DNA of 28,738 nt from a virus, in IMG/VR virus record IMGVR_UViG_3300047557_001972, positions 1 to 28,738 of that record; one strand, written 5' to 3'. Position 1 is the first letter of the stretch. The number at the start of each line of letters is the position of its first letter. Below the pieces are notes generated by a model. That model saw nothing but the letters and a program-made list of their open reading frames with translations, did not search any database and was not told the DNA's origin. Below are positions 97 to 27,826 of this stretch, one piece after another. The position numbers were made by a program, and so were the translations under genes.

Positions 97-3000
97 CTAC
101 ACAATACGACGGCGATATGACTGTTCTGCCGCTTTAACAATAAGCATAAGGTCATTGCCACGAAGCTCACCAACAATCACACCGGACTCAAACGCTGCAC
201 GTAATGCACGCACCTCAGCAACCAAAGGCACGGCAACAGCACTCGAAGACATTTGCACAATAGTCTGCAACTGTTTATCAGTCGTCACCCATTCACGGTT
301 GCTGCCACCTAAACGTGACGCATCACCAATAACCGCTACTGTAGGTTGGTCAATGCGACCACCTGTCGCAAACGATGTTAAACCATCAATGATAGGTGAG
401 GCGAGTGCGTTCACACCTGCATAGACAGTGCCATATATTGCGGCGGTAGTGATTGGTGCAAGGAACCCGGTTGCTGCAATAGCTGACTTGATAAGCGGTG
501 ATGAGAGTACAATCTCTAATACAAACGAACTAAGGTATGCCTTGAGTGCACCTGCGAGCTTACCAAATATCTTGCGGTATGAATCATCGAACGCTTCATC
601 ATCTCCACCTATACCGGACGCAATGGCTGATGTAACATCTTCACCGAGCGATTGCGCAAGGGTATTGAGGATATTGCCTTCTTCGGTTAAGCGCGCTTTC
701 AAACCTTCAAGACGCACATTTGCTTCTTCCACAGCTTTGGCATCGTTCACTGATTTGGCAATGCTTATCTCTTTCTCGGCTTGTTCAATCTCAAGGTCTA
801 AGCGTTTACGTGCTGCCGCTGCTGATGCAATCAATGCCTTAGACTGCGCTTCGCTTTCGAGTCGCAATGTACGCTGCCTTGCCTCTTCTGCAATGCGTTC
901 ACGCTGCTCTTGTGCCTCTTGCTCTATGCGGAGCTTCTCGGCTTCGGCTTGTTTAGTCAAGGTAATCTTCTGCTCGTCATAGCTGCGTTGGCTGAGTATG
1001 CCTGCACTCTTTGTGTTCTCAAGGGCTGCAAGCTCTGCATTGAATCTCTCATCATAGGCTGCAAGTATCTTAGTGGTCTCATCATCAATGGCTTTGGTAG
1101 AGTCTGCCAGTTGCTCTTGGTTGAACTTATCTTTCATAGACTGTTCAAGACCGAAGGACACACTTAACTTAGCTATACGCTGTTCAATTCGTTTGTCATA
1201 CTCGGCAAGCTCTGCCGATGCAACCGAACGCAATGTTTCAATTTCTTTCTGTTTGCTCTCTTCAATGATAGCTGTCTTTTCGCGCTCGTAACCTTGACGC
1301 TCTCTGATAAGCTCAAGGAGTTGTCGTTTGTATTGTTTGGTTGTCTCCGGGTCAATTTCAGGTGTGAGCTTCTTACGCAACTCTGCAATCTGACCGTCAA
1401 CCGATTGTATCTCTTGGTCAAGTGCTTGACTAAGGCTGCTATTGGTTGCAAATCCAAGCTCAATGTCAATGGAAATTTGCTCGCGTTCAAAGGCTCTGAG
1501 TTCTTTTTGGAATGCTGCATCATCAATCTTTGATGTCAAGCGTATCTCTGCAACGGCATTGTCTGACTGCGCTATGTCACGGCTTAACTGCTCAAGGTCA
1601 GCTTCAAACTTGGCTTTGTCTTCTTTCTTGAGACCTTTTAAGGTAATCTCAAACTCACCGTTTGACTCTTTGACTATGGCTTTCTTTTGGGCAAGTTCAT
1701 CAAGTAATGCTTGTTGTTTGCGAGTTTGTATCTCAAGTGTCTTTTCGGCAATTGCAATCTCATCACCGGCATTGCGCTCACGCCCTTGGGCAAGCCTTGT
1801 ACTTTCGACTGCTATGCCATAGATTTGCTCTTCAATGTCAAGAGCGGCAGCACGTTTGTCATAAGCAAGTTGAATCAGCTCCGCAATGGTCTTGTATTCC
1901 GGTTTGATTTGTCCGGTAATCTTCTGTATCTGTTCTTCGGTCTTAGCTGCTGCCTCACGTTGCTTAACTTGGTTACGTGTCTCTTGAACAAGCTTCTTAA
2001 ACTCTTCTGTATTGCGTCCGCCTTCCTTAGCCATCTGTGATAGCTTTGCAGTATTGCCGGATATACCATTGTCCAACTCTTGCTTTGCCTTATTCCATTC
2101 CGCTGCCAAATCTCGTGCTGCTTGTTTGGCGGCATTGGTCTCGGCAGCAAACTTCTTCGTGTTACCTGCCATCTTAGCCGCTTCTTCGGCTGAAAGCCCT
2201 GCTTGCTTGGCTATTTCTTCAAGATTGTCGGACGTGATGCCAAGACCTTTGCCCTCGTCAACAGTAGCTTCAAGTACCTTACGGCTCTCTTCGGTTGCTT
2301 CGGCTACTTTGTTGTACTCTTCGGTTAACTTGGTCACGTCCTTGCCCGCAATGGCTTGAGCAACTATCTCTTTTCGGAGTTGCTCGGCTTTACCTTTGTT
2401 CTGCAAATATGTGTCACCTTGTTCCTTGAGCAAAGTAACAAAGGCTTTCTGTGAGCCTTGCAATTGTCCTGTCAAGGCTTGCTCTTGTGCTTCGGCAAAC
2501 TTGCCTGCCTCTTCTGCTGCAACTCCAAACTCTCTGCCGATGACCTCGGCAATGTTCTGCTTCTTCACAGTATCAGTTGTCTTTGCATAGTTGTCTGCAA
2601 GTTCTTTCAATCGGTTGTTCTTATCAAGATTGCCTTTGATTTCAAACCCTGCTTCAACTTGTTTCTGCAATCCTTCAAGCCTTAACTCCTTTGATTTTTC
2701 CTGTACGCCTTTGTTGAAGGCATTGCCTACTTTATCACCCAAATTCGACGCGGCGGACAATGCTCCGGTGATGTCACCATCTAAGAGTTTCGACAGTATC
2801 TCAAGCGCACCTTCACGCAATGCGGTCATAGCTTCGGTGACACCGCGTATGGTGATTGATACTTTGTTGAATGATGACTCAAGCGTACTTACTGTGTCTG
2901 TTAGCCCTTGACCTTCGGTGGATAAGCCAAAGAAATCGCTCAAGGAACCAGCCAAATCAACCACCTTATCAATGATCAGACCGATAAACTCTCCAACGAA

Positions 3001-4845
3001 GGTCACATTGCCTATCACGTCCTCAACAATAAAGCCGAACACTTCACTAAACAAATCACCAACGGCGGTGAGTGCAGGCTCAATGCGTTCATAGAGCTTT
3101 GTTGCTCCATCGCTAAGATCGTCCCATATCTTCTGACCTCGCTCGGTTTGTGTGAAGAAGAGTGCCAAAGCTGCAACGGACGCACCAACACCGAGCACCA
3201 TCGGGTTAGCGAGTGCAGGACCTAACTTACTGAGTGCCGGTGCAAGTTGGTCTTTGGCTTGTGTGGCAATCTTGCCAAGGTTCTTTTCAAATGCTTCGGC
3301 AGCTCCGGGTGGGAGTATCTGTTTGACAGCTGCCAACTGTGGAGCTGCTGCCGTCAATGCCTGTGCGCCCTTCGCGAGCGGCAATAATGCTGCACTTGCT
3401 TGCTCTTGAAGGAATGTAAGTTGCTTGGTAATCTTGTCAGTGATGGAAGGGTTGAATGACTCTTGAACAATAGCAGCGGCATTGCTTGCCTTTGCACTTA
3501 TCTCATCTGTATTGATAGGAGCACCAAAGAGTTTTGCATAAAGCTCTGTACCAAGCTCTTCTGCCGGGCTGCCGCTTATACCTACTTGAATCTGTGAACG
3601 TAACTGCTCGCTGATTGTACCTTCTTTGACGGCGTTCTCTGTTGCCTCTGTGACACGGAACATCAAGTCTTTGACAGAGATTTCACCTGTTTTCGCTGCT
3701 TTGGCAATGTTGGCAATCTCATCTTGCAGACCTTTGGGAACATTTGCAAGACCTGCCAAAGCTGCATCAATATCACCTGCATTGAGGCGTATCTGTGTCT
3801 CCTTGATAGCATCGGCAATCTTATCTGTGGTAAAGCTACCTGCCTCACTGCCACGTGTCATGATGCCGATGAACTCCTCTGCGCTTAACCCTGCTTGCTT
3901 CATCAAAAGTGGATACTCTTGAATTGTATCAAGGACATCGCCTGCGGCTACTTTACCATCACGCATTGCCAAGGTCAATAAATTGCCTGCCTCATCAGCA
4001 TTAAGCCCGAACGCTTGTATGAATCCTTGACTCTTTTGCAATACCTCATTCACGTCAACATCAAACGCTTTGCCTGCATTGTTAGCAGATAGGATAAAAC
4101 TATTCAGCTCGTCACCATCAAAGAACTTACCCACCGTCTGCTTTGCTTGCCCTATAACTTTGATTGCATCTGATGCCGATTCACCCACACCATTGACAAA
4201 CGCTTCACGTGCTTGGTCTTTAAGTACTGACATCTCTTCGGCTGTCGCTCCGGTCTGTGCTCTCAAGGCTTTCTGCGCTTCGGCAAACTCGGAACCGGAT
4301 TCCACAATAGACCCGAACGATTCATTGAGTGTTCCAAGTGCTTCGGACAATGCAAGGAAACCAAGTGCACTGTCACCGGCATCAGGCATTGGTACATCGT
4401 TTTGGTCTTGCAGTTCGGCTGTCACTTTGGCTTCGGCTTTGGCAATGTCGTCAACAGCTTGCTTACGTTCACGGAGCAAGGCAATGGCTTGTTCATACTC
4501 TTCGGTTTGTTGTTTACCTTCACGAGCTAATTTAGCAACTGCCGCAAATTGTTCATTGTAAGCATCATTAGCACCATTCTTGATATCGTCCCATTGTGAG
4601 GCAATCTTATTGATTTCACTCATAACGTCGCTACCATCAGCCGTCAATTCAATGTCATCAGCTGATAAGTTATCTATAGCCCATTGAAGCTTGTCAAGAC
4701 TATCTGTGTCCGCTTCGATTGAGAGCTGCACAGTCTCGGCTATCTTCAAAGCCGACTCAGCCATCTTGATTGCTTTTTTGAGTTGCTCTTCAAACTCTTT
4801 TTGGTCGAGTTCGGGCTTTACCTTTACTATTAGTTGTGTAGCCAT
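97..4845 (-). CDS. Tail tape measure protein
   Basis: This 1582-residue protein would set tail length and occupy the tail lumen before DNA ejection. Residues about 180-460 look like the conserved PhageMin_Tail core (an alternating Ala/Gly-rich helical region including FGLNADEAGNLL and GLSAEEFIGIMTRG). Hydrophobic segments follow near residue 550 (MVLGVGASVAALALFF) and near 1470-1510. Between them lie long charged coiled coils rich in E, K, Q and R. The C-terminus has the TGGRIDQPTVAVIGDA motif common in tape measures. The start has GGAG six bases upstream and overlaps by 16 bases the frameshifted chaperone frame. It is the last gene transcribed, leaving no tail-tip genes after it. By the rule of about 1.5 angstrom per residue, the tail would be roughly 230-240 nm; this is an inference. 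Confidence 0.92.
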   Translation of the reverse strand: MATQLIVKVKPELDQKEFEEQLKKAIKMAESALKIAETVQLSIEADTDSLDKLQWAIDNLSADDIELTADGSDVMSEINKIASQWDDIKNGANDAYNEQFAAVAKLAREGKQQTEEYEQAIALLRERKQAVDDIAKAEAKVTAELQDQNDVPMPDAGDSALGFLALSEALGTLNESFGSIVESGSEFAEAQKALRAQTGATAEEMSVLKDQAREAFVNGVGESASDAIKVIGQAKQTVGKFFDGDELNSFILSANNAGKAFDVDVNEVLQKSQGFIQAFGLNADEAGNLLTLAMRDGKVAAGDVLDTIQEYPLLMKQAGLSAEEFIGIMTRGSEAGSFTTDKIADAIKETQIRLNAGDIDAALAGLANVPKGLQDEIANIAKAAKTGEISVKDLMFRVTEATENAVKEGTISEQLRSQIQVGISGSPAEELGTELYAKLFGAPINTDEISAKASNAAAIVQESFNPSITDKITKQLTFLQEQASAALLPLAKGAQALTAAAPQLAAVKQILPPGAAEAFEKNLGKIATQAKDQLAPALSKLGPALANPMVLGVGASVAALALFFTQTERGQKIWDDLSDGATKLYERIEPALTAVGDLFSEVFGFIVEDVIGNVTFVGEFIGLIIDKVVDLAGSLSDFFGLSTEGQGLTDTVSTLESSFNKVSITIRGVTEAMTALREGALEILSKLLDGDITGALSAASNLGDKVGNAFNKGVQEKSKELRLEGLQKQVEAGFEIKGNLDKNNRLKELADNYAKTTDTVKKQNIAEVIGREFGVAAEEAGKFAEAQEQALTGQLQGSQKAFVTLLKEQGDTYLQNKGKAEQLRKEIVAQAIAGKDVTKLTEEYNKVAEATEESRKVLEATVDEGKGLGITSDNLEEIAKQAGLSAEEAAKMAGNTKKFAAETNAAKQAARDLAAEWNKAKQELDNGISGNTAKLSQMAKEGGRNTEEFKKLVQETRNQVKQREAAAKTEEQIQKITGQIKPEYKTIAELIQLAYDKRAAALDIEEQIYGIAVESTRLAQGRERNAGDEIAIAEKTLEIQTRKQQALLDELAQKKAIVKESNGEFEITLKGLKKEDKAKFEADLEQLSRDIAQSDNAVAEIRLTSKIDDAAFQKELRAFEREQISIDIELGFATNSSLSQALDQEIQSVDGQIAELRKKLTPEIDPETTKQYKRQLLELIRERQGYEREKTAIIEESKQKEIETLRSVASAELAEYDKRIEQRIAKLSVSFGLEQSMKDKFNQEQLADSTKAIDDETTKILAAYDERFNAELAALENTKSAGILSQRSYDEQKITLTKQAEAEKLRIEQEAQEQRERIAEEARQRTLRLESEAQSKALIASAAAARKRLDLEIEQAEKEISIAKSVNDAKAVEEANVRLEGLKARLTEEGNILNTLAQSLGEDVTSAIASGIGGDDEAFDDSYRKIFGKLAGALKAYLSSFVLEIVLSSPLIKSAIAATGFLAPITTAAIYGTVYAGVNALASPIIDGLTSFATGGRIDQPTVAVIGDASRLGGSNREWVTTDKQLQTIVQMSSSAVAVPLVAEVRALRAAFESGVIVGELRGNDLMLIVKAAEQSYRRRIV

Positions 4846-5138
4846 GCTTGCTCCGCGTTAAGTTTAATGGTGTTGAATATATCTGACCAGAGTATCTGTC
4901 TTGCTTGGTGCAATTCCACCGGATTACTAAATAACTTGACAAAAAAAGGCGAACGCCGGGACTCGACTATTCGCCTTTGCAATTCATTTTCCTGATAGAC
5001 CTGTGCTATTGCGACGAGTTGTTTTGTGTAGCTATCTGCTTTTCTATCATTTTGAGTGCTAATTGTTCGACTAAGGCGGCGTTGCTCCGCTGCTTCGACG
5101 GCATTATTGGTTTGCTCAACAACCCCTCTGGCAATTGA
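4830..5138 (-). CDS. -1 frameshift extension of tail assembly chaperone (GT-like domain)
   Basis: After a -1 slip on the nine-T run, reading continues at 5138 for 102 codons without a stop to TAA at 4832-4830, giving a fusion of about 212 residues (110 from the zero frame). The extension begins SIARGVVEQTNNAVEAAEQ and ends EQAWLHN. This frame has no ATG, and its only GTG or TTG codons are late, so it is unlikely to be an independent gene. It bridges the otherwise empty 160-base gap before the tape measure and overlaps its first 16 bases. This is the known architecture of gpG/gpGT tail chaperones of siphophages. The slip itself is inferred from reading-frame structure. Confidence 0.75.
   Translation of the reverse strand, partial: SIARGVVEQTNNAVEAAEQRRLSRTISTQNDRKADSYTKQLVAIAQVYQENELQRRIVESRRSPFFVKLFSNPVELHQARQILWSDIFNTIKLNAEQAWLHN
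4941..4978 (-). terminator. Terminator-like hairpin between chaperone and tape measure
   Basis: On the minus strand a 9-base arm (AAAGGCGAA, 4978-4970) pairs perfectly with TTCGCCTTT (4953-4945) across a 16-base loop, followed by further T to 4941, giving seven T in all. It looks like an intrinsic terminator or attenuator directed at the tape measure gene. It lies inside the -1 frameshift extension, so ribosomes that shift frame would pass through it. The loop is longer than usual for a terminator. Confidence 0.45.
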
Positions 5139-5467
5139 AAAAAAAACTCTACTTTGCTCTTCAATACCTGCACAAAGCTGTGAGGCAAGCTCATAAGTAA
5201 TGTCTTCATCTCACTGTGAGAGATTATATCGTATGGCTTTGCTTTGCCTTCTTTGTCAACAAATCTGAACAGAGCTGAACAGCACTCAAACAACCATGAG
5301 ACCTCGCCAGATCGTATGCGTTCGGTCACGGACACATTGTCTTTCATGTTTTGTGTCATGTCCACAAAGTAATTGTATGCCGTGTTTGCTACACAGTACA
5401 TCTCTGCCGTAATTAGCATCTCATCAAAGACTACTTTGACTTCTTCATTTTCAAAAATCACTTCCAT
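5006..5467 (-). CDS. Tail assembly chaperone (gpG-like, zero-frame product)
   Basis: A 153-residue protein directly upstream of the tape measure, the standard position of the tail assembly chaperone that coats the tape measure during tube assembly. The protein is acidic and mostly helical by eye, and I do not recognise its family by sequence. The start overlaps the preceding stop as TAATG. Codons 108-110 are three consecutive TTT (5146-5138), giving a T TTT TTT slippery run; the normal stop is a TAG at 5008-5006. The call rests on position plus the open -1 frame described separately. Without the frameshift it would simply be a small unknown tail protein. Confidence 0.7.
   Translation of the reverse strand: MEVIFENEEVKVVFDEMLITAEMYCVANTAYNYFVDMTQNMKDNVSVTERIRSGEVSWLFECCSALFRFVDKEGKAKPYDIISHSEMKTLLMSLPHSFVQVLKSKVEFFFQLPEGLLSKPIMPSKQRSNAALVEQLALKMIEKQIATQNNSSQ
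5138..5146 (-). promoter_or_regulatory. Slippery site for programmed -1 frameshift
   Basis: Nine consecutive T on the coding strand are read as three in-frame TTT codons (Phe108-110). Both tRNAs could re-pair after a -1 step on T TTT TTT, the classic X XXY YYZ arrangement. After the step the frame stays open for 102 codons. No strong downstream pseudoknot was recognised by eye. Confidence 0.7.
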
Positions 5468-5967
5468 TAGAGAGTCCCATTGAATAGTATGTTACCAATT
5501 GTACAGATAGTGCTGCACGTCACAATAAGTCGCTGCCGCTGCTCCGGTGATTCATATCGCAATGATATACTCCATCGTTCTGTGGTAGTGTCAATAAGCG
5601 ATAATAATGCACCACCTTCATGATTGTTTGCTGTAGCACCTGCATTGTAATTCGAGCTAAAACCGGACATGTCACCAAGCATCACTTCAACATTGCAACC
5701 TTTACGAGCTTTGCTTAAATACTCAAGGTCAGATGCGAACTGTTCAAAGTTGTTCTGCGGCATATAGATTGTTGCGGTTACTCTATACGCTTCGTCAAAG
5801 GTTGTGCCCATGCCTGTTGTCACCGTAATCGGGTCTATGGTGAGTGAGGATTCACCTTCGGCATTGTGAATGAAGATTGAATCTGTATCATCAATCTCAT
5901 TGATTCGCACTCCTTTGATTGGTCTGCGATGTACCTTGTTTATCGCGTTAAGGACTATATCTGCCAT
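5467..5967 (-). CDS. Tail protein, possible tail tube (position before chaperone)
   Basis: A 166-residue protein between the 124-residue protein and the tail assembly chaperone. In most siphophages this slot belongs to the major tail tube protein. The sequence alternates short hydrophobic and polar stretches compatible with beta structure (SLTIDPITVTTGMG, AYRVTATIYMP, WSISLRYES) and ends with a beta-like segment. I do not recognise the family. A competing tube candidate is the 265-residue protein at 13965-14762. The start overlaps the previous stop within the tightly coupled tail operon. Confidence 0.45.
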   Translation of the reverse strand: MADIVLNAINKVHRRPIKGVRINEIDDTDSIFIHNAEGESSLTIDPITVTTGMGTTFDEAYRVTATIYMPQNNFEQFASDLEYLSKARKGCNVEVMLGDMSGFSSNYNAGATANNHEGGALLSLIDTTTERWSISLRYESPEQRQRLIVTCSTICTIGNILFNGTL

Positions 5968-6341: not shown

Positions 6342-6856
6342 CAGACCACCTTCACTAATTTGATGAACTGTTCAACAAGCTCACTTGTTTCCTTCTTTGA
6401 ATGACCAAGGAACATACGCCCACGGTCAATGTTGTACTGTGCAATCCGAGCAAGCTCAGGGCGTGCCCAGCCAAGAGTCACTTCACCTTTGTTTTCCTTC
6501 ACATCAATTACCGTGAGAGCATCCATCATCTTACCTGTTGCGCGAAGGTTTACAATGCCGCCGTCATACTCGTCCGGGAAAGCAACACTCTTCCACGTGT
6601 CATAACCATTGATAAGTGCCCAGAGCTTTTGACCGTCTTTCATGATGTACTCAGCTTTGTTCTCTTTCACGAGCTTTGCAAGTGCGGCACGCTGTTTCGC
6701 TGTCAAGCCGCCAACCGGTCGAAAAAAGGTCTTTGTGCTATATGGCTTAAAGGGCTTACCTTCTGCATCAATACCTTTGGCAGTCCGCTCACGAATCATC
6801 TCGGCAGCATATAAGCCAAGCGCATTAAGTTGCTCGTATGTGAGTGTAAGTTCCAT
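6341..6856 (-). CDS. Mu G-like virion morphogenesis / tail completion protein
   Basis: This 171-residue protein resembles the phage virion morphogenesis family (Mu gpG, HK97 gp10-like), which completes head-tail joining. Supporting features are the N-terminal R-T-x-K-G-I-D-A-E-G-K-P-F-K-P-Y-S segment (residues about 24-40), a central LRATGKMMDAL motif and the late NIDRGRMFLG segment, where family members usually have an R-x-F-L-G-like stretch. Its place just after the portal matches Mu-group gene order (portal, F, G). The stop overlaps the next start. Confidence 0.7.
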   Translation of the reverse strand: MELTLTYEQLNALGLYAAEMIRERTAKGIDAEGKPFKPYSTKTFFRPVGGLTAKQRAALAKLVKENKAEYIMKDGQKLWALINGYDTWKSVAFPDEYDGGIVNLRATGKMMDALTVIDVKENKGEVTLGWARPELARIAQYNIDRGRMFLGHSKKETSELVEQFIKLVKVV

Positions 6857-8025
6857 CAGAACAAGCTCGCTTTCGGTGCAATAACAGGTTCAACTCCTTC
6901 AGGTAGCTTCATGCCGATTCTTTGATAGACCTGTGCAGCATCAAGACTCAAGCCGGCTTTAAGGGCGGTGTCAACTATGCGTACTTCTTTCTCTCTGTCA
7001 ATCTCTTCGTCAATGTTGAACTCAAAGTAATATGGCACATCTTCGGACGCTTTTAGACTGCGATAGTCAGCAACAAGTATCTGATCATTGATGACATTCA
7101 TAGCCCTTTGCATGTCTTGCCAGAGGATGTCACCCCTCACAAGATTGAGCACTTGCATTGCTGCTAAGCCGCTACCCTTTGGCAACTCTGCCGTGTTGGC
7201 TTGACCAAGGAAAGCAATAGCAATGTCTTTCTCTAACTCGCTTTTGATGTCCTTATATGTTGCACTACCTTGCCCGGACACGAACTCTTTGAAATCGAAG
7301 TTAATGCCATCTGATGTGGCAGCATAGTTCGTTGTTTGCAATGTGGCAATAACATTCTTTGCCATCTCTTTCTCTTCGGGTGCAGCACCTTCATTCCATT
7401 GCGCTAATGCCAAGCCCATCAATTTGCGAGCGAAGTTTGCCCAGTTCTGCAAGTTGTCATTGAGCATCACTTCATGGATTGCGATTGATGGTAAGATTGG
7501 TTTCTTACGGCTCAAATCAATCACATAGAAGTTTGCTGATGTCGCATCATTTACAAGTGGTATCTTGGTAATGGTCGAAGTACCTTGAAGCTCATACACA
7601 TTGTCACCATCGCGCTCAATTTCTGTCGCATCAAATATCTTGGTAATCTTCCACGAATTGCCGAGCACCGGGTCATAGCTCCATTCGAGCTGCATCACGA
7701 AGCAACCAAAGGCAGGCGCGAAGACAACATTGTCAAGATAGGTATTGATAATCTTCTTCAAACGCCTTGCAGCGTCCTGAGCTTGTTGCTCTGCCGCAGG
7801 GTCTTTGGCAACGATACGCCAACCATAACCCGTGACGGCGGCGGTGCGAACATCCATGTGCCCTTGAGTACGCGGATCGGCTTCAAGTATGCGGTTACAC
7901 ACACTCATAAGTGGTCTGACATCACGACTGCGTATGTCTGTGTTGCGATATGATGAGTACATACCCATCAGCTTTGACAGCGTCGGGAAACGCTTATTGA
8001 GTAATGAGCTATCAATGTAAATCAT
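6856..8025 (-). CDS. Portal protein, DUF935 (Mu gp29-like)
   Basis: A 389-residue protein expected to form the dodecameric portal ring through which DNA enters and leaves the capsid. The N-terminal region (RSRDVRPLMSVCNRILEADPRTQGHMDVRTAAVTGYGWRI in outline, given here by key blocks RPLMS, DPRTQGHMDVR and GYGWRI) and the central TSDGINFDF and QGSATYKDI blocks match the DUF935 style. The C-terminus has the usual E-I-D-R-E-K and L-x-L-D-x-A-Q-V-Y segments. It is slightly shorter than Mu gp29 (about 510 residues). It begins one base after the large terminase stop, as expected for a packaging module. Confidence 0.85.
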   Translation of the reverse strand: MIYIDSSLLNKRFPTLSKLMGMYSSYRNTDIRSRDVRPLMSVCNRILEADPRTQGHMDVRTAAVTGYGWRIVAKDPAAEQQAQDAARRLKKIINTYLDNVVFAPAFGCFVMQLEWSYDPVLGNSWKITKIFDATEIERDGDNVYELQGTSTITKIPLVNDATSANFYVIDLSRKKPILPSIAIHEVMLNDNLQNWANFARKLMGLALAQWNEGAAPEEKEMAKNVIATLQTTNYAATSDGINFDFKEFVSGQGSATYKDIKSELEKDIAIAFLGQANTAELPKGSGLAAMQVLNLVRGDILWQDMQRAMNVINDQILVADYRSLKASEDVPYYFEFNIDEEIDREKEVRIVDTALKAGLSLDAAQVYQRIGMKLPEGVEPVIAPKASLF

Positions 8026-8026
8026 G

Positions 8027-9595
8027 TCAGAACGAATATGAGTTAGTTAAAGTAAACACTTCTATTGCTGTACTTGCCTTGAGGCGAACAAGATGCCTTT
8101 CGTGTGCTAATTCGTGCGCACTTATCATCACATCAGGTCCGTCGTCCTTTTTGTTTGCCGTCTTGCCACTAAAAGCAAACACTTGATTAAGGAACACTTT
8201 GCCTTCATCAGTCCGGGCGATGCTTTTATGAAACACAATATCACCTTTGTCCCAGCCGAGCTTCACATTCTTTGCCAGCAAATCCACTTTGTACCGTTTG
8301 TATTCAATCCGTGGGAAAGGAGTATCGTTCAACTGACACCAATTGCGAATAAAGTTTGTCCACGTTGCCTCTTGAGTAACATTACCGTCCCAGCCACAAG
8401 CGAAGATGTACTTCTTATACTTTTGATAAAGTTCAAAGTACGATTCGACAAGGTCATTGCTATTGCTGTACGATTTGCAGCGGAGTTCCGGTATGTAATA
8501 CTTTTGGTTTTTAGCACTGTGCAAATAGACAACGATAGCACCTGTATCACCTTGCCCAGTCAATGAAAGGTTCGGGTCAGCGAATATCACACCCTTACAA
8601 TCGCTGGGCAATGCTCCATCATACTCATGATGCGGACGTTTGAAGTAAAATCCATCCGGTGGAATCGGGTTTTGTTGAAAATCACCTTGCCATTCCGCCT
8701 CATCCAAGGGTTTTAGCTTGGCACGTAGTTCGGCTTCGGTCTTTACCGGATAGCGAGACTTCCAAAGCGGTTTGCCTTTTTCCCATGCCTTATAGACATG
8801 TACCTTCCAACCTTCACCGATGATGTTTTTCTTTTGCTCTTCAAGCAGCACATTGATATAGCCGCTTCGGTCAAAGTTGTTACCAAGACATACAAGAGTG
8901 CCATTGTCCACCAATGACTGATAGGATTCGCCAAGCAATCTGATACGTGATTTCGTGTGCTCTCCACCGATCGGAGTTGTCCGGGTTTCTAAATCATCGT
9001 AAAGAATGAACTGCGGACGGTCAAAACCAGACGAAGCCGAACGTACCGAGCGACCTTCGGAAAATGGTTCTACGATACGTTTGCCTGTCAGCCCTTCGAC
9101 GTAAAAACTAAATTGATCAGCATTGTCTGTATCAATGACTACCTTGTAATCATACATGATGCGAGGATTGTCACGGATAAGCGTAGCAACATCAGACAAG
9201 ATATTCCGTGCGTTTGGTTCCAAAACCGAAGAAGCAACAGCGGCATAACGCAATTGACCTGTGAGCAACTTGTATATCAGATACTTTTTCATTGTTGCTG
9301 TCTTGCCATGCTTCCTTGGACCTGCAACAATTTGAACGCCCGGAGTGTCGGCAATCTTTACAAGGTCTTTGTGGAACTTTGCCGGCTGACTGAATCCATC
9401 AGAGTACATCGCGTTAGGGAAGTATATTCCATCGAACTTCCAGAAATCACGTTTGGACTCTGACAAGCGGTGAACACGTCGCTCTTCAATCATGTCAGCA
9501 TCCGGGAACGGCTTTGCAGCTTGCATCTGTGATTTGTTCTGTGCCGCCTTTTCAAACTCCTTGAAGCTATGTGCTAAACCACTGAATGTTTCCAT
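8027..9595 (-). CDS. Terminase large subunit
   Basis: A 522-residue packaging ATPase/nuclease. Walker A is GPRKHGKT at residues 92-99. Walker B is FILYDD at 196-201, followed by E203 as the probable catalytic glutamate. The C-terminal RNase H-like nuclease has acidic candidates D340 (VIFADPNLSL), D403 (GWDGN) and D488 (DDGPDVMISA). It is the motor that fills the capsid; in Mu-type phages it packages by headful, including host DNA. The start overlaps the small terminase by 22 bases, implying translational coupling. Confidence 0.92.
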   Translation of the reverse strand: METFSGLAHSFKEFEKAAQNKSQMQAAKPFPDADMIEERRVHRLSESKRDFWKFDGIYFPNAMYSDGFSQPAKFHKDLVKIADTPGVQIVAGPRKHGKTATMKKYLIYKLLTGQLRYAAVASSVLEPNARNILSDVATLIRDNPRIMYDYKVVIDTDNADQFSFYVEGLTGKRIVEPFSEGRSVRSASSGFDRPQFILYDDLETRTTPIGGEHTKSRIRLLGESYQSLVDNGTLVCLGNNFDRSGYINVLLEEQKKNIIGEGWKVHVYKAWEKGKPLWKSRYPVKTEAELRAKLKPLDEAEWQGDFQQNPIPPDGFYFKRPHHEYDGALPSDCKGVIFADPNLSLTGQGDTGAIVVYLHSAKNQKYYIPELRCKSYSNSNDLVESYFELYQKYKKYIFACGWDGNVTQEATWTNFIRNWCQLNDTPFPRIEYKRYKVDLLAKNVKLGWDKGDIVFHKSIARTDEGKVFLNQVFAFSGKTANKKDDGPDVMISAHELAHERHLVRLKASTAIEVFTLTNSYSF

Positions 9596-18360: not shown

Positions 18361-19320
18361 CTACGCTAACTTGATGCCCTGCATCACTGCAATAGCCTTA
18401 TCATTTTGAAGCAATGTACCAGCATCAAACTCTACGGATGTGTTGTACTTGTTGCCAACCAATCCAAGATCTTTGACATTCAATCCATTTGTGGTAGCAA
18501 TTGACAAGTCAATGCGCTCACCAAAACGGATTGCATAAAGCGAAGAGCAAACACCGGAGCTTGTACCCAGCGTTTCGGTGTTGGTGATGATTTTAGTGGT
18601 ACCGTCTTTTTTGTAACCGGCATCAATAAGCGGAATGCCATTGTAGGAAACAAGCTGCATCGGCTGACCCATCGCATCTGTGATTGTTGTTACCGTCACA
18701 TATTCACGTAGAACAGATTGCAAGCGAGCACGTACCTTGTCATTGCAGATTAACACAGTCGCACCACCGGAGACCATACTGATTAACTCGTCAAGTGCTT
18801 CGATGAAGTTTTGCTGTGTGGTCTTGTTGGTGTCCGAGTTGCCAAGCAGCACAGTCCCACCATTATTACCACCGTACTTCAAAATCTGACCTGAAGGCAT
18901 AAGTGATTTTACGCCTGTCAAAGCATTAGATGTACCATCACCATTGACAATCTGATCGGTGAAGAAACGCCCCATGCCTCGGCAAAACTCTTCGAGCTGG
19001 CGAGCACGCTCAGAAGTAACTGTGTAACCACGTCGCTCAAGTGCTTGGTCAGTGGCAATCATGTCACCAAGTATTGTCAGAGTCGCATCAGCAAAAGCAA
19101 CTGTGGTATTAGTTGCTTCGAAATCATCGTTAATTGCACGAACTGCACCACCTTTGGCAGTGCTTGCTTTTGCTACCTTGTCAGCATTACCGACCATTGT
19201 GTAGAACTCGGCATAGTTCAGTATCGGAGCGGCTGCCGTCATAGCAGCTATTGCGAGCGAACGCAATGCAGGGTTATCGCCTGGTTGCCCGTCCGAAGCA
19301 TTGATTTGGTTAAGTCTCAT
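18361..19320 (-). CDS. Major capsid protein (HK97 fold candidate)
   Basis: A 319-residue protein that would form the capsid shell. Features consistent with HK97-fold capsid proteins are the N-terminal region leading to NAEFYTMVG-like and FEATNTTVAFADATLTILGDMIATDQALERRG (key blocks VAFADATLTILGD and DQALERRG), a spine-helix-like ERARQLEEFCRGMGRFFTDQIVNGDGT, the P-domain segment VLICNDKVRARLQSVLRE, and the YNGIPLIDAGYKKDGTT loop near the C-terminus. This order (N-arm, helix ending in a NGDGT turn, I-P-L/I-D) is common to many capsid proteins. AAGG and a shared leader precede the ATG. The upstream gene is the scaffold candidate. Confidence 0.85.
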   Translation of the reverse strand: MRLNQINASDGQPGDNPALRSLAIAAMTAAAPILNYAEFYTMVGNADKVAKASTAKGGAVRAINDDFEATNTTVAFADATLTILGDMIATDQALERRGYTVTSERARQLEEFCRGMGRFFTDQIVNGDGTSNALTGVKSLMPSGQILKYGGNNGGTVLLGNSDTNKTTQQNFIEALDELISMVSGGATVLICNDKVRARLQSVLREYVTVTTITDAMGQPMQLVSYNGIPLIDAGYKKDGTTKIITNTETLGTSSGVCSSLYAIRFGERIDLSIATTNGLNVKDLGLVGNKYNTSVEFDAGTLLQNDKAIAVMQGIKLA

Positions 19321-25984: not shown

Positions 25985-27826
25985 TTAGAATAAATCAATG
26001 TCGAGCTTGAACTCGTCATCGTTGGAAGTATCTTCGGTAATTGGTTCATCATACACAGTTGCATCAATCACATACTGCTCATCCATCGGCAAACTGATGA
26101 TTGTTGCAGGTGCGGTCACTTGTTTTGGTGCAAGCGTTCTGCTCTTTATGAGTTCATCAGCACTGACACCTGCTTTTGCGTAGGTCGCTTCGGTTTCGGC
26201 TTCACGTTTGGCACGGTATCCTTCGCGCAACTGCCTTGATTGTTGGCGGAATCTGATGTCTTCGGCTTGTGTGACTGTGTAATCTTCGGCTATGCAGACA
26301 AGTTGCGGTAACTCGGTCTTTGTTGAAGGAATGAACACGAGATAGCGGTCATCGTTCGGTATGGCGCACACGTGCAGCTTTGCTTTGAGTAAAGAATAAT
26401 CATACAACTCTTGAGCACGAAGATTGAGCTTTCTGTTGTTCATTGTGACACGTAGCGAACCAGCTTCTGTGAGTTGCACTTGATGTATAGGCATAGAGTA
26501 ATACAACAAGTTAGCAAGTTGAACAGGCGAAGGATAAACCTTTGTCTCAGGCATATAGTATTCCATCATTGCCGTATATGTCGGCTCGGATTTGTGAGCT
26601 ATAGCCCATTCCTTCAGTGAGTCACGTTGTACATTAAGATGCTCAGAGTATGCGTAGTTATAGAGTGTATCAAAGTATTCAGATGCGTTAGGTGTGTATG
26701 CTCCGAGTATAGGCATTTGCTTACGTTCGAGCTGCACGGCTTCATGCAGACCTGCGCCATGGAATGATTGAGGGAAGTTCAATGAGTCACTGCGCTTGAT
26801 TTCAGCGAATAAGCGTTCACCTTTTGCTTTACCAAGGTCACGTGGTATATGCGGACAATTGCGGACAATACCGGATTCACTACGGAATAACATTTTGTAT
26901 TGTTCTGATGCAAGTACTTGGCGGTCACTGTCATTGTAAAGTGATTTGACCACACCTTCAACTTGATCAGCAATTGCGGCACGTGAGTTCTCCATGAAAA
27001 ACACCGGACAATCAAGACCATGAGCATAGATTGTATTGACAATTGCACGAACATAGGTCTGTGCCGTGACTGTTTCGCATTGTTCAACCCACAATAAAGC
27101 ACCAGTCAACACGCACCAAGCATACACACCATAACGCATCTTTGTCGCACCTGTGTCTTTGTCAAGTGTCCACGCATCTCCTTTGCGGTCATCAAGCATG
27201 ATGAACCGAGCAAACCCACGACCACGACCACAACCAAGGTCATTCTCTGCGAGCTTCCAGAAGTTGTACTTGACGTGACCGGTAGTGAGAGCATCAGTGT
27301 GTTTGTGCCATTTGAGCGTGTGTTTCTGTTGCCAACCATCAGTATAGACAGGTCCTTTGAAGTACTTGTCCGAACGTGCAACGTGCTTTTTGTACAACCA
27401 TTCATTCTCTGCGCAAACGCGAATGTCATCAATGGTGAACTGAATAGCATTACCGGATTCGACAAGATGAACCGCTTGAACGATTGCACGACGGCAGGCG
27501 GAGCGGACATCCTTCATTGCATTCGACATATACTCAGCGAAGGAGAGAGCAACAAGCCATTCGACACATTGTTCATTGCGAGTACGTGTTTTGCCTTTAT
27601 CGTTGCGGTTCTTTCGCACCGATGTTGCAGCCGCTTGCTCCGGTTGCCAAAGGCGTAGAGCTTCTTTACGATAGATTCGAGTAGGTCTGCCATCAGTCTG
27701 TATAAATCCTAAGCATAAAGAAGAGTTGCGAAGGCGTTTGTTTACCGCCTGTGGGCTTACTCTTGCTAAAGCGGCGAGATGATCGGCAGTGTAATACTCA
27801 GCCGTTTGGAGTTGTGCACTATACAT
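25985..27826 (-). CDS. MuA-type DDE transposase
   Basis: A 613-residue transposase, close to the 663 of MuA. N-terminal residues about 8-60 contain a helix-turn-helix domain (ADHLAALARVSPQAVNKRLRN) expected to bind the enhancer or ends. A second helical region spans about 90-150. The catalytic core starts near 200 (ARFIMLDDRKGDAWTLD); D212 aligns with MuA D269. E279 (FFMENSRAA) sits where MuA has D336, and E337 (GKAKGERLF) matches E392 in AKPVER. Spacings of 67 and 58 agree with MuA (67 and 56). The C-terminal part (about 400-520) is the basic beta-barrel region, followed by a variable acidic tail. It integrates the phage and replicates it by transposition. The 72-residue upstream gene overlaps its start by eight bases. 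Confidence 0.9.
   Translation of the reverse strand: MYSAQLQTAEYYTADHLAALARVSPQAVNKRLRNSSLCLGFIQTDGRPTRIYRKEALRLWQPEQAAATSVRKNRNDKGKTRTRNEQCVEWLVALSFAEYMSNAMKDVRSACRRAIVQAVHLVESGNAIQFTIDDIRVCAENEWLYKKHVARSDKYFKGPVYTDGWQQKHTLKWHKHTDALTTGHVKYNFWKLAENDLGCGRGRGFARFIMLDDRKGDAWTLDKDTGATKMRYGVYAWCVLTGALLWVEQCETVTAQTYVRAIVNTIYAHGLDCPVFFMENSRAAIADQVEGVVKSLYNDSDRQVLASEQYKMLFRSESGIVRNCPHIPRDLGKAKGERLFAEIKRSDSLNFPQSFHGAGLHEAVQLERKQMPILGAYTPNASEYFDTLYNYAYSEHLNVQRDSLKEWAIAHKSEPTYTAMMEYYMPETKVYPSPVQLANLLYYSMPIHQVQLTEAGSLRVTMNNRKLNLRAQELYDYSLLKAKLHVCAIPNDDRYLVFIPSTKTELPQLVCIAEDYTVTQAEDIRFRQQSRQLREGYRAKREAETEATYAKAGVSADELIKSRTLAPKQVTAPATIISLPMDEQYVIDATVYDEPITEDTSNDDEFKLDIDLF

Follow-up and report, generated by a model that had tools for sequence, protein, structure and literature searches.

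A probable tail chaperone-type -1 frameshift at a nine-T tract upstream of the tape measure gene in a phage without recognisable chaperone sequence

Tail assembly chaperones form a class with low sequence similarity between phages, in which homology is not a defining requirement, and both the function and the conservation of the lambda G/GT pair have been described (PMC5009743). Some frameshift sites of tailed phages work without stimulators, and in E. coli the U_UUU_UUU sequence is much less shifty than A_AAA_AAG (PMC5009743). Poly-T slip sites in the gene preceding the tape measure are found in P2 (T6G), Smp131 (T7G) and related prophages (T7C) (PMC3931495), while for SPP1 17.5/17.5* a putative slip was assigned to UUUUUUC, after 112 shared residues of the 173-aa product (PMC6316719). 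In this study we analysed a viral gene located at the corresponding position, which contains a tract of nine T residues and is followed by a long open -1 frame.

The window, by which we mean the whole analysed stretch of DNA, is a virus record of 28,738 bases with phage structural genes on the minus strand. The record stops just beyond the tape measure gene and is therefore probably a fragment. The features used in this work are listed below.

97..4845, minus strand: tape measure protein, 1582 aa, PHROG match; contains the -1 frame stop 16 nt inside
5138..4830, minus strand: -1 frame extension (T-like), 102 codons and a stop; predicted fusion of 110 + 102 = 212 aa
5137..5006, minus strand: overlap read in both frames, 43 zero-frame codons and a stop; coding score favours the -1 frame
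5146..5138, minus strand: putative T9 slip site, three in-frame TTT codons (codons 108-110), with the phased heptamer T_TTT_TTT
5467..5006, minus strand: zero-frame ORF of 153 aa with an ATG start; putative tail assembly chaperone (G-like), from position and architecture
5467..5967, minus strand: 166-aa ORF directly upstream of the pre-tape ORF; candidate major tail tube protein, from position only
6856-8025, minus strand: portal, PHROG match
8027-9595, minus strand: terminase, PHROG match
18361-19320, minus strand: capsid, PHROG match

The phage looks like an orphan, Mu-like one. Searching a phage collection by tblastn with eight window proteins gave no match of at least 60% identity (0/8), and among named phages the closest terminase is that of Winogradskyella phage Peternella_1, 25% identical across 60% of the protein. 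Scans of viral contigs with one protein at a time (chaperone, tape measure, terminase, DUF3164 or putative transposase) found no close relatives, nor did terminase and capsid motif patterns in viral contigs or the terminase motif in genome contigs. A 613-aa ORF (25985-27826, minus strand) sits where a Mu-type transposase would be expected; it had no credible Pfam, PHROG or NCBIfam match, its tblastn against the phage collection was empty, and we call it a putative transposase from its position and motif-like residues only. The 35 minus-strand ORFs checked for start codons open with ATG in 33 cases and GTG in two; TTG was not used. Shine-Dalgarno-like motifs (AGGA, GGAG or GAGG) precede 17 of these 35 ORFs, i.e. 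about half. This share is above our expectation for a typical phage of Bacteroidota.

The pre-tape ORF directly precedes the tape measure gene, which was recognised by its PHROG match, and the 166-aa ORF upstream of it gave no tail tube match in family and sequence searches. The sequence-only reading of this DNA had placed nine T's, as three in-frame TTT codons, in this gene, and these coordinates are right on the minus strand (the tract is A9 on the plus strand). After T9 the zero frame continues for 43 codons up to a stop at 5008..5006, and a gap of 160 nt separates the 153-aa ORF from the tape measure ATG at 4845. The -1 frame is free of stops from 5210 to its own stop at 4832..4830. The first codon after the predicted slip is TCA at 5138 and, with it counted, 102 codons follow, which span the gap and continue for 16 nt within the tape measure ORF, exactly as had been proposed. 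The claim that this frame lacks an ATG also held on recomputation; its only GTG or TTG codons are TTG 4982, GTG 4919 and TTG 4913, all well 3' of the slip site, which leaves the extension without a credible start of its own.

The same reading regarded the slippery site as a bare poly-T tract. The T run is indeed there but it is not bare, as T_TTT_TTT within T9 is a canonical XXXYYYZ heptamer in the exact phase for -1 slippage, and for this reason the site is more conventional than was first held. It is the sole phased heptamer within the overlap. The minus-strand genes, about 7,900 codons together, have just fourteen in-phase XXXYYYZ sites, and only the T9 one is homopolymeric. T9 is likewise the only homopolymer of at least eight nucleotides in the 28,738 bases, the second longest being A7 at 4941-4947. 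On the minus strand this second tract is a T7 inside the extension, also phased as T_TTT_TTT in the -1 frame, where an extra slip would soon run into a stop.

Neither the 153-aa ORF nor the extension matched a known tail chaperone in Pfam, PHROGs or NCBIfam, and phage tblastn with each of them separately returned nothing meaningful. At the protein level, muconolactone isomerase and dehalogenase matched weakly (E 0.03-0.4), as did a myelin factor domain (E 0.004, under the curated cut-off for that domain), and we took these matches as chance. A single-sequence structure model of the 153-aa ORF carried no usable information (mean pLDDT 41). Predicted RNA folding past the slip site was no better than that of shuffled sequences (z = -0.34 and +0.49, for folds without pseudoknots).

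The open -1 frame was next compared with a chance model, in which the zero-frame residues were kept and codons redrawn, and the gap was generated from the window's dinucleotides (20,000 trials). Of the simulated -1 frames, 1.9% were open across the overlap, 4.9% across the gap and 0.095% across both. Permutation of the overlap's own codons left the -1 frame always open, so that control was uninformative. We also applied a codon log-odds score trained on the window's other genes. In the overlap the -1 frame scored +6.9, which corresponds to the 24th percentile of true coding windows and exceeds at least 99.9% of off-frame windows, while the zero-frame tail after T9 scored -0.7 (1st percentile of true coding windows). 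The gap part of the -1 frame alone scored +1.4 (2nd percentile of coding); it looks coding-like, though less clearly than the overlap part. The whole extension reached +8.3, more than all 4,000 off-frame samples, yet at the 2.5th percentile of coding.

These values bear on two simpler accounts of the locus. In one, the open -1 frame is coincidental and the 153-aa protein is the sole product, in agreement with the lack of homology or conservation support for the window's own extension. We find this very improbable, given that the chance of such an open frame is about 0.001, that the window's only T9 is correctly phased and falls in precisely the gene in which the family leads one to expect it, and that the -1 frame scores coding-like. 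In the other, no fusion is made and the -1 frame is an independent small gene, with its start in the gap (TTG 4982, about 50 codons) or expressed by coupling. AGGA is located about 7 nt ahead of TTG 4982, but the -1 coding signal is strongest upstream of that codon, in the overlap, and TTG opened no ORF of those checked (0/35), which makes a separate gene hardly credible.

Sixteen phages with a readable upstream ORF, linked to the window solely by terminase or tape measure similarity, were surveyed for the same layout; three further contigs (L130, L131 and L134) had no usable upstream ORF in the stretch and were left out of the count. In 13 of the 16 a -1 frame runs from within the pre-tape ORF to between -27 and +20 nt of the tape measure start, a count pooled from several overlapping samples in which some contigs are near relatives of one another, so that the draws are not independent. 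A phased heptamer stands at a plausible site in 11 of the 13 phages showing the extension. The sites observed were as follows.

A_AAA_AAG: Peternella_1 and five contigs (L107, L108, L109, L110, L128)
G_GGA_AAG: three contigs (L132, L133, L135)
A_AAG_GGG: Porphyromonas phage007a
A_AAA_AAA: gut phage L092
CCCTTTC and CCCTTTT in the overlap: Bacteroides phage p00, true site uncertain

The site of p00 is uncertain because its extension resembles that of the Porphyromonas phage only from a later point. In contig L129 the -1 frame is open, without a strict heptamer. The three exceptions (BKO1-3, TCUEAP2 and L090) all have a longer pre-tape gene of 235-258 aa. Profile comparison of the window extension with those of the Peternella and the Porphyromonas/Bacteroides groups gave no significant match. 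The extensions of phage007a and p00 look mutually related (SHSPFG.VWQIA.ATGWS...), and part of the -1 region in each (L089:12684-12836 and L091:14095-14295, respectively) is annotated as a separate small hypothetical protein. In Peternella_1 (MT732475.1) the 240-nt pre-tape gap (L002:26649-26888) holds an unannotated 87-codon -1 extension with A_AAA_AAG, and the deposited record gives the short ORF only.

The survey bears on one more account, in which T9 is a phase-variable site of replication slippage or a miscounted tract, and the real genome, or an alternate form of it, carries T10 and a single fused gene. Poly-T tracts are mutable and the zero-frame tail scores poorly as coding. Against that, distant phages whose sites are not homopolymeric, e.g. 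GGGAAAG, have the same off-frame arrangement as a rule, and we consider a T10 genome very improbable.

Taken together, the T9 gene very probably yields a short and a long protein by slippage, and a tail chaperone frameshift of the G/GT type is the best explanation, which we hold with good though not full confidence. It fits best because the locus agrees with this type in its position and frame, the phasing of the heptamer, the length of the extension and a stop shortly after the tape measure start, the shifted frame being open to about that start, and it is further supported by the same layout, with varied heptamers, in the distantly related phages. The likeness to the lambda gpG/gpGT arrangement suggested by the sequence-only reading is thus upheld. 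The layout of the locus and the extension's coding signal are established, whereas we infer the production of the fusion, its route and its function.

According to the proposed mechanism, the 153-aa G-like protein would be the main product of the gene 5467-5006, and in a minority of expression a one-base backward slip at T9 would give a GT-like fusion of approximately 212 aa with a 102-residue C-terminal domain from the -1 frame. By analogy with lambda (PMC5009743), the tape measure protein would be coated by both products, with the extension serving to recruit tail tube subunits to it. Ribosomes completing the extension would terminate 16 nt beyond the tape measure ATG, and this may couple both genes. 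The ribosome is the most likely agent of the slip, through tandem tRNA-Phe shifting on T_TTT_TTT without a strong stimulator; a ribosomal -1 frameshift at T9 is thus likely rather than established.

The shift may be transcriptional instead of, or besides, ribosomal, because nine T's are long enough for RNA polymerase to slip; polymerase adding a single T to the tract may be a contributor or the principal route. Ten-U transcripts translated normally would then give the GT-like protein, while eight-U transcripts would yield a short truncated product. This possibility competes with the G/GT explanation on the route only, and overlaps it. In vivo, slippage on runs of nine A or T is efficient in bacteria (PMC5009743), and T9 exceeds the threshold for programmed transcriptional realignment on Tn tracts, n > 8 (PMC3711429). 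Moreover, seven T's suffice for the ribosomal heptamer and the tract has nine, and U_UUU_UUU is the weaker ribosomal site in E. coli (PMC5009743). That no RNA stimulator was detected in the downstream sequence agrees with polymerase slippage, and is compatible with the ribosomal route too. On the other side, ribosomes are credited with the shift in the known G/GT cases, the distant phages have slip sites on which RNA polymerase would hardly slip efficiently, being too short, and the additional TTT may be a mere Phe codon. Within our limited literature search, we know of no G/GT system with transcriptional slippage as the main route. Production of the fusion through RNA polymerase slippage is therefore possible but rather unlikely in our estimate, and it appears slightly more doubtful still that the fusion comes mainly from it, with the chaperone stoichiometry set at transcription.

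The T9 gene is a good new example of a device known from lambda and many tailed phages, not a new device. Its unusual point is the tract length of nine T's, poly-T sites being otherwise precedented (P2, Smp131, related prophages, SPP1), and only the transcriptional alternative would surprise a specialist. On the preferred G/GT reading, this type of frameshift would extend to an orphan phage without recognisable chaperone sequence, and the pre-tape chaperone gene would be findable from architecture alone. The survey indicates that -1 extensions have been overlooked in records such as that of Peternella_1. Should the slip at T9 be transcriptional, two different machines would have arrived at the same protein ratio in different phages.

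Comparison with known systems places the locus as follows. In lambda gpG/gpGT, as in the window, the chaperone stands ahead of the tape measure and has a -1 extension without its own start; the slip sequence differs (GGGAAAG in lambda), and the window protein is without a detectable chaperone family match. Peternella_1 and its related contigs have distantly related terminase and tape measure proteins and a -1 extension filling the pre-tape gap, but their slip site is A_AAA_AAG and the extensions are not significantly similar. Thermus dnaX and Shigella mxiE share with the window a coding A/T run, nine in dnaX, which leads to frame-shifted products (PMC5009743, PMC3711429), though there RNA polymerase slips and the genes are not phage tail genes. 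P2 E/E+E' and Smp131 orf27/27.1 have a poly-T slip site in the pre-tape gene (PMC3931495), but these are myophages with shorter T runs. SPP1 gp17.5/gp17.5* differs from the window in the tract (T6C versus T9) and in the extension (about 185 versus 102 codons), with no sequence similarity detected, and its tail tube - chaperone - tape measure order is paralleled in the window by a positional tail tube candidate only (PMC6316719). As in the window, its putative -1 T-run heptamer (UUUUUUC) lies about 110 codons into the gene, a long zero-frame tail follows the slip, and the extension ends at the tape measure start (PMC6316719).
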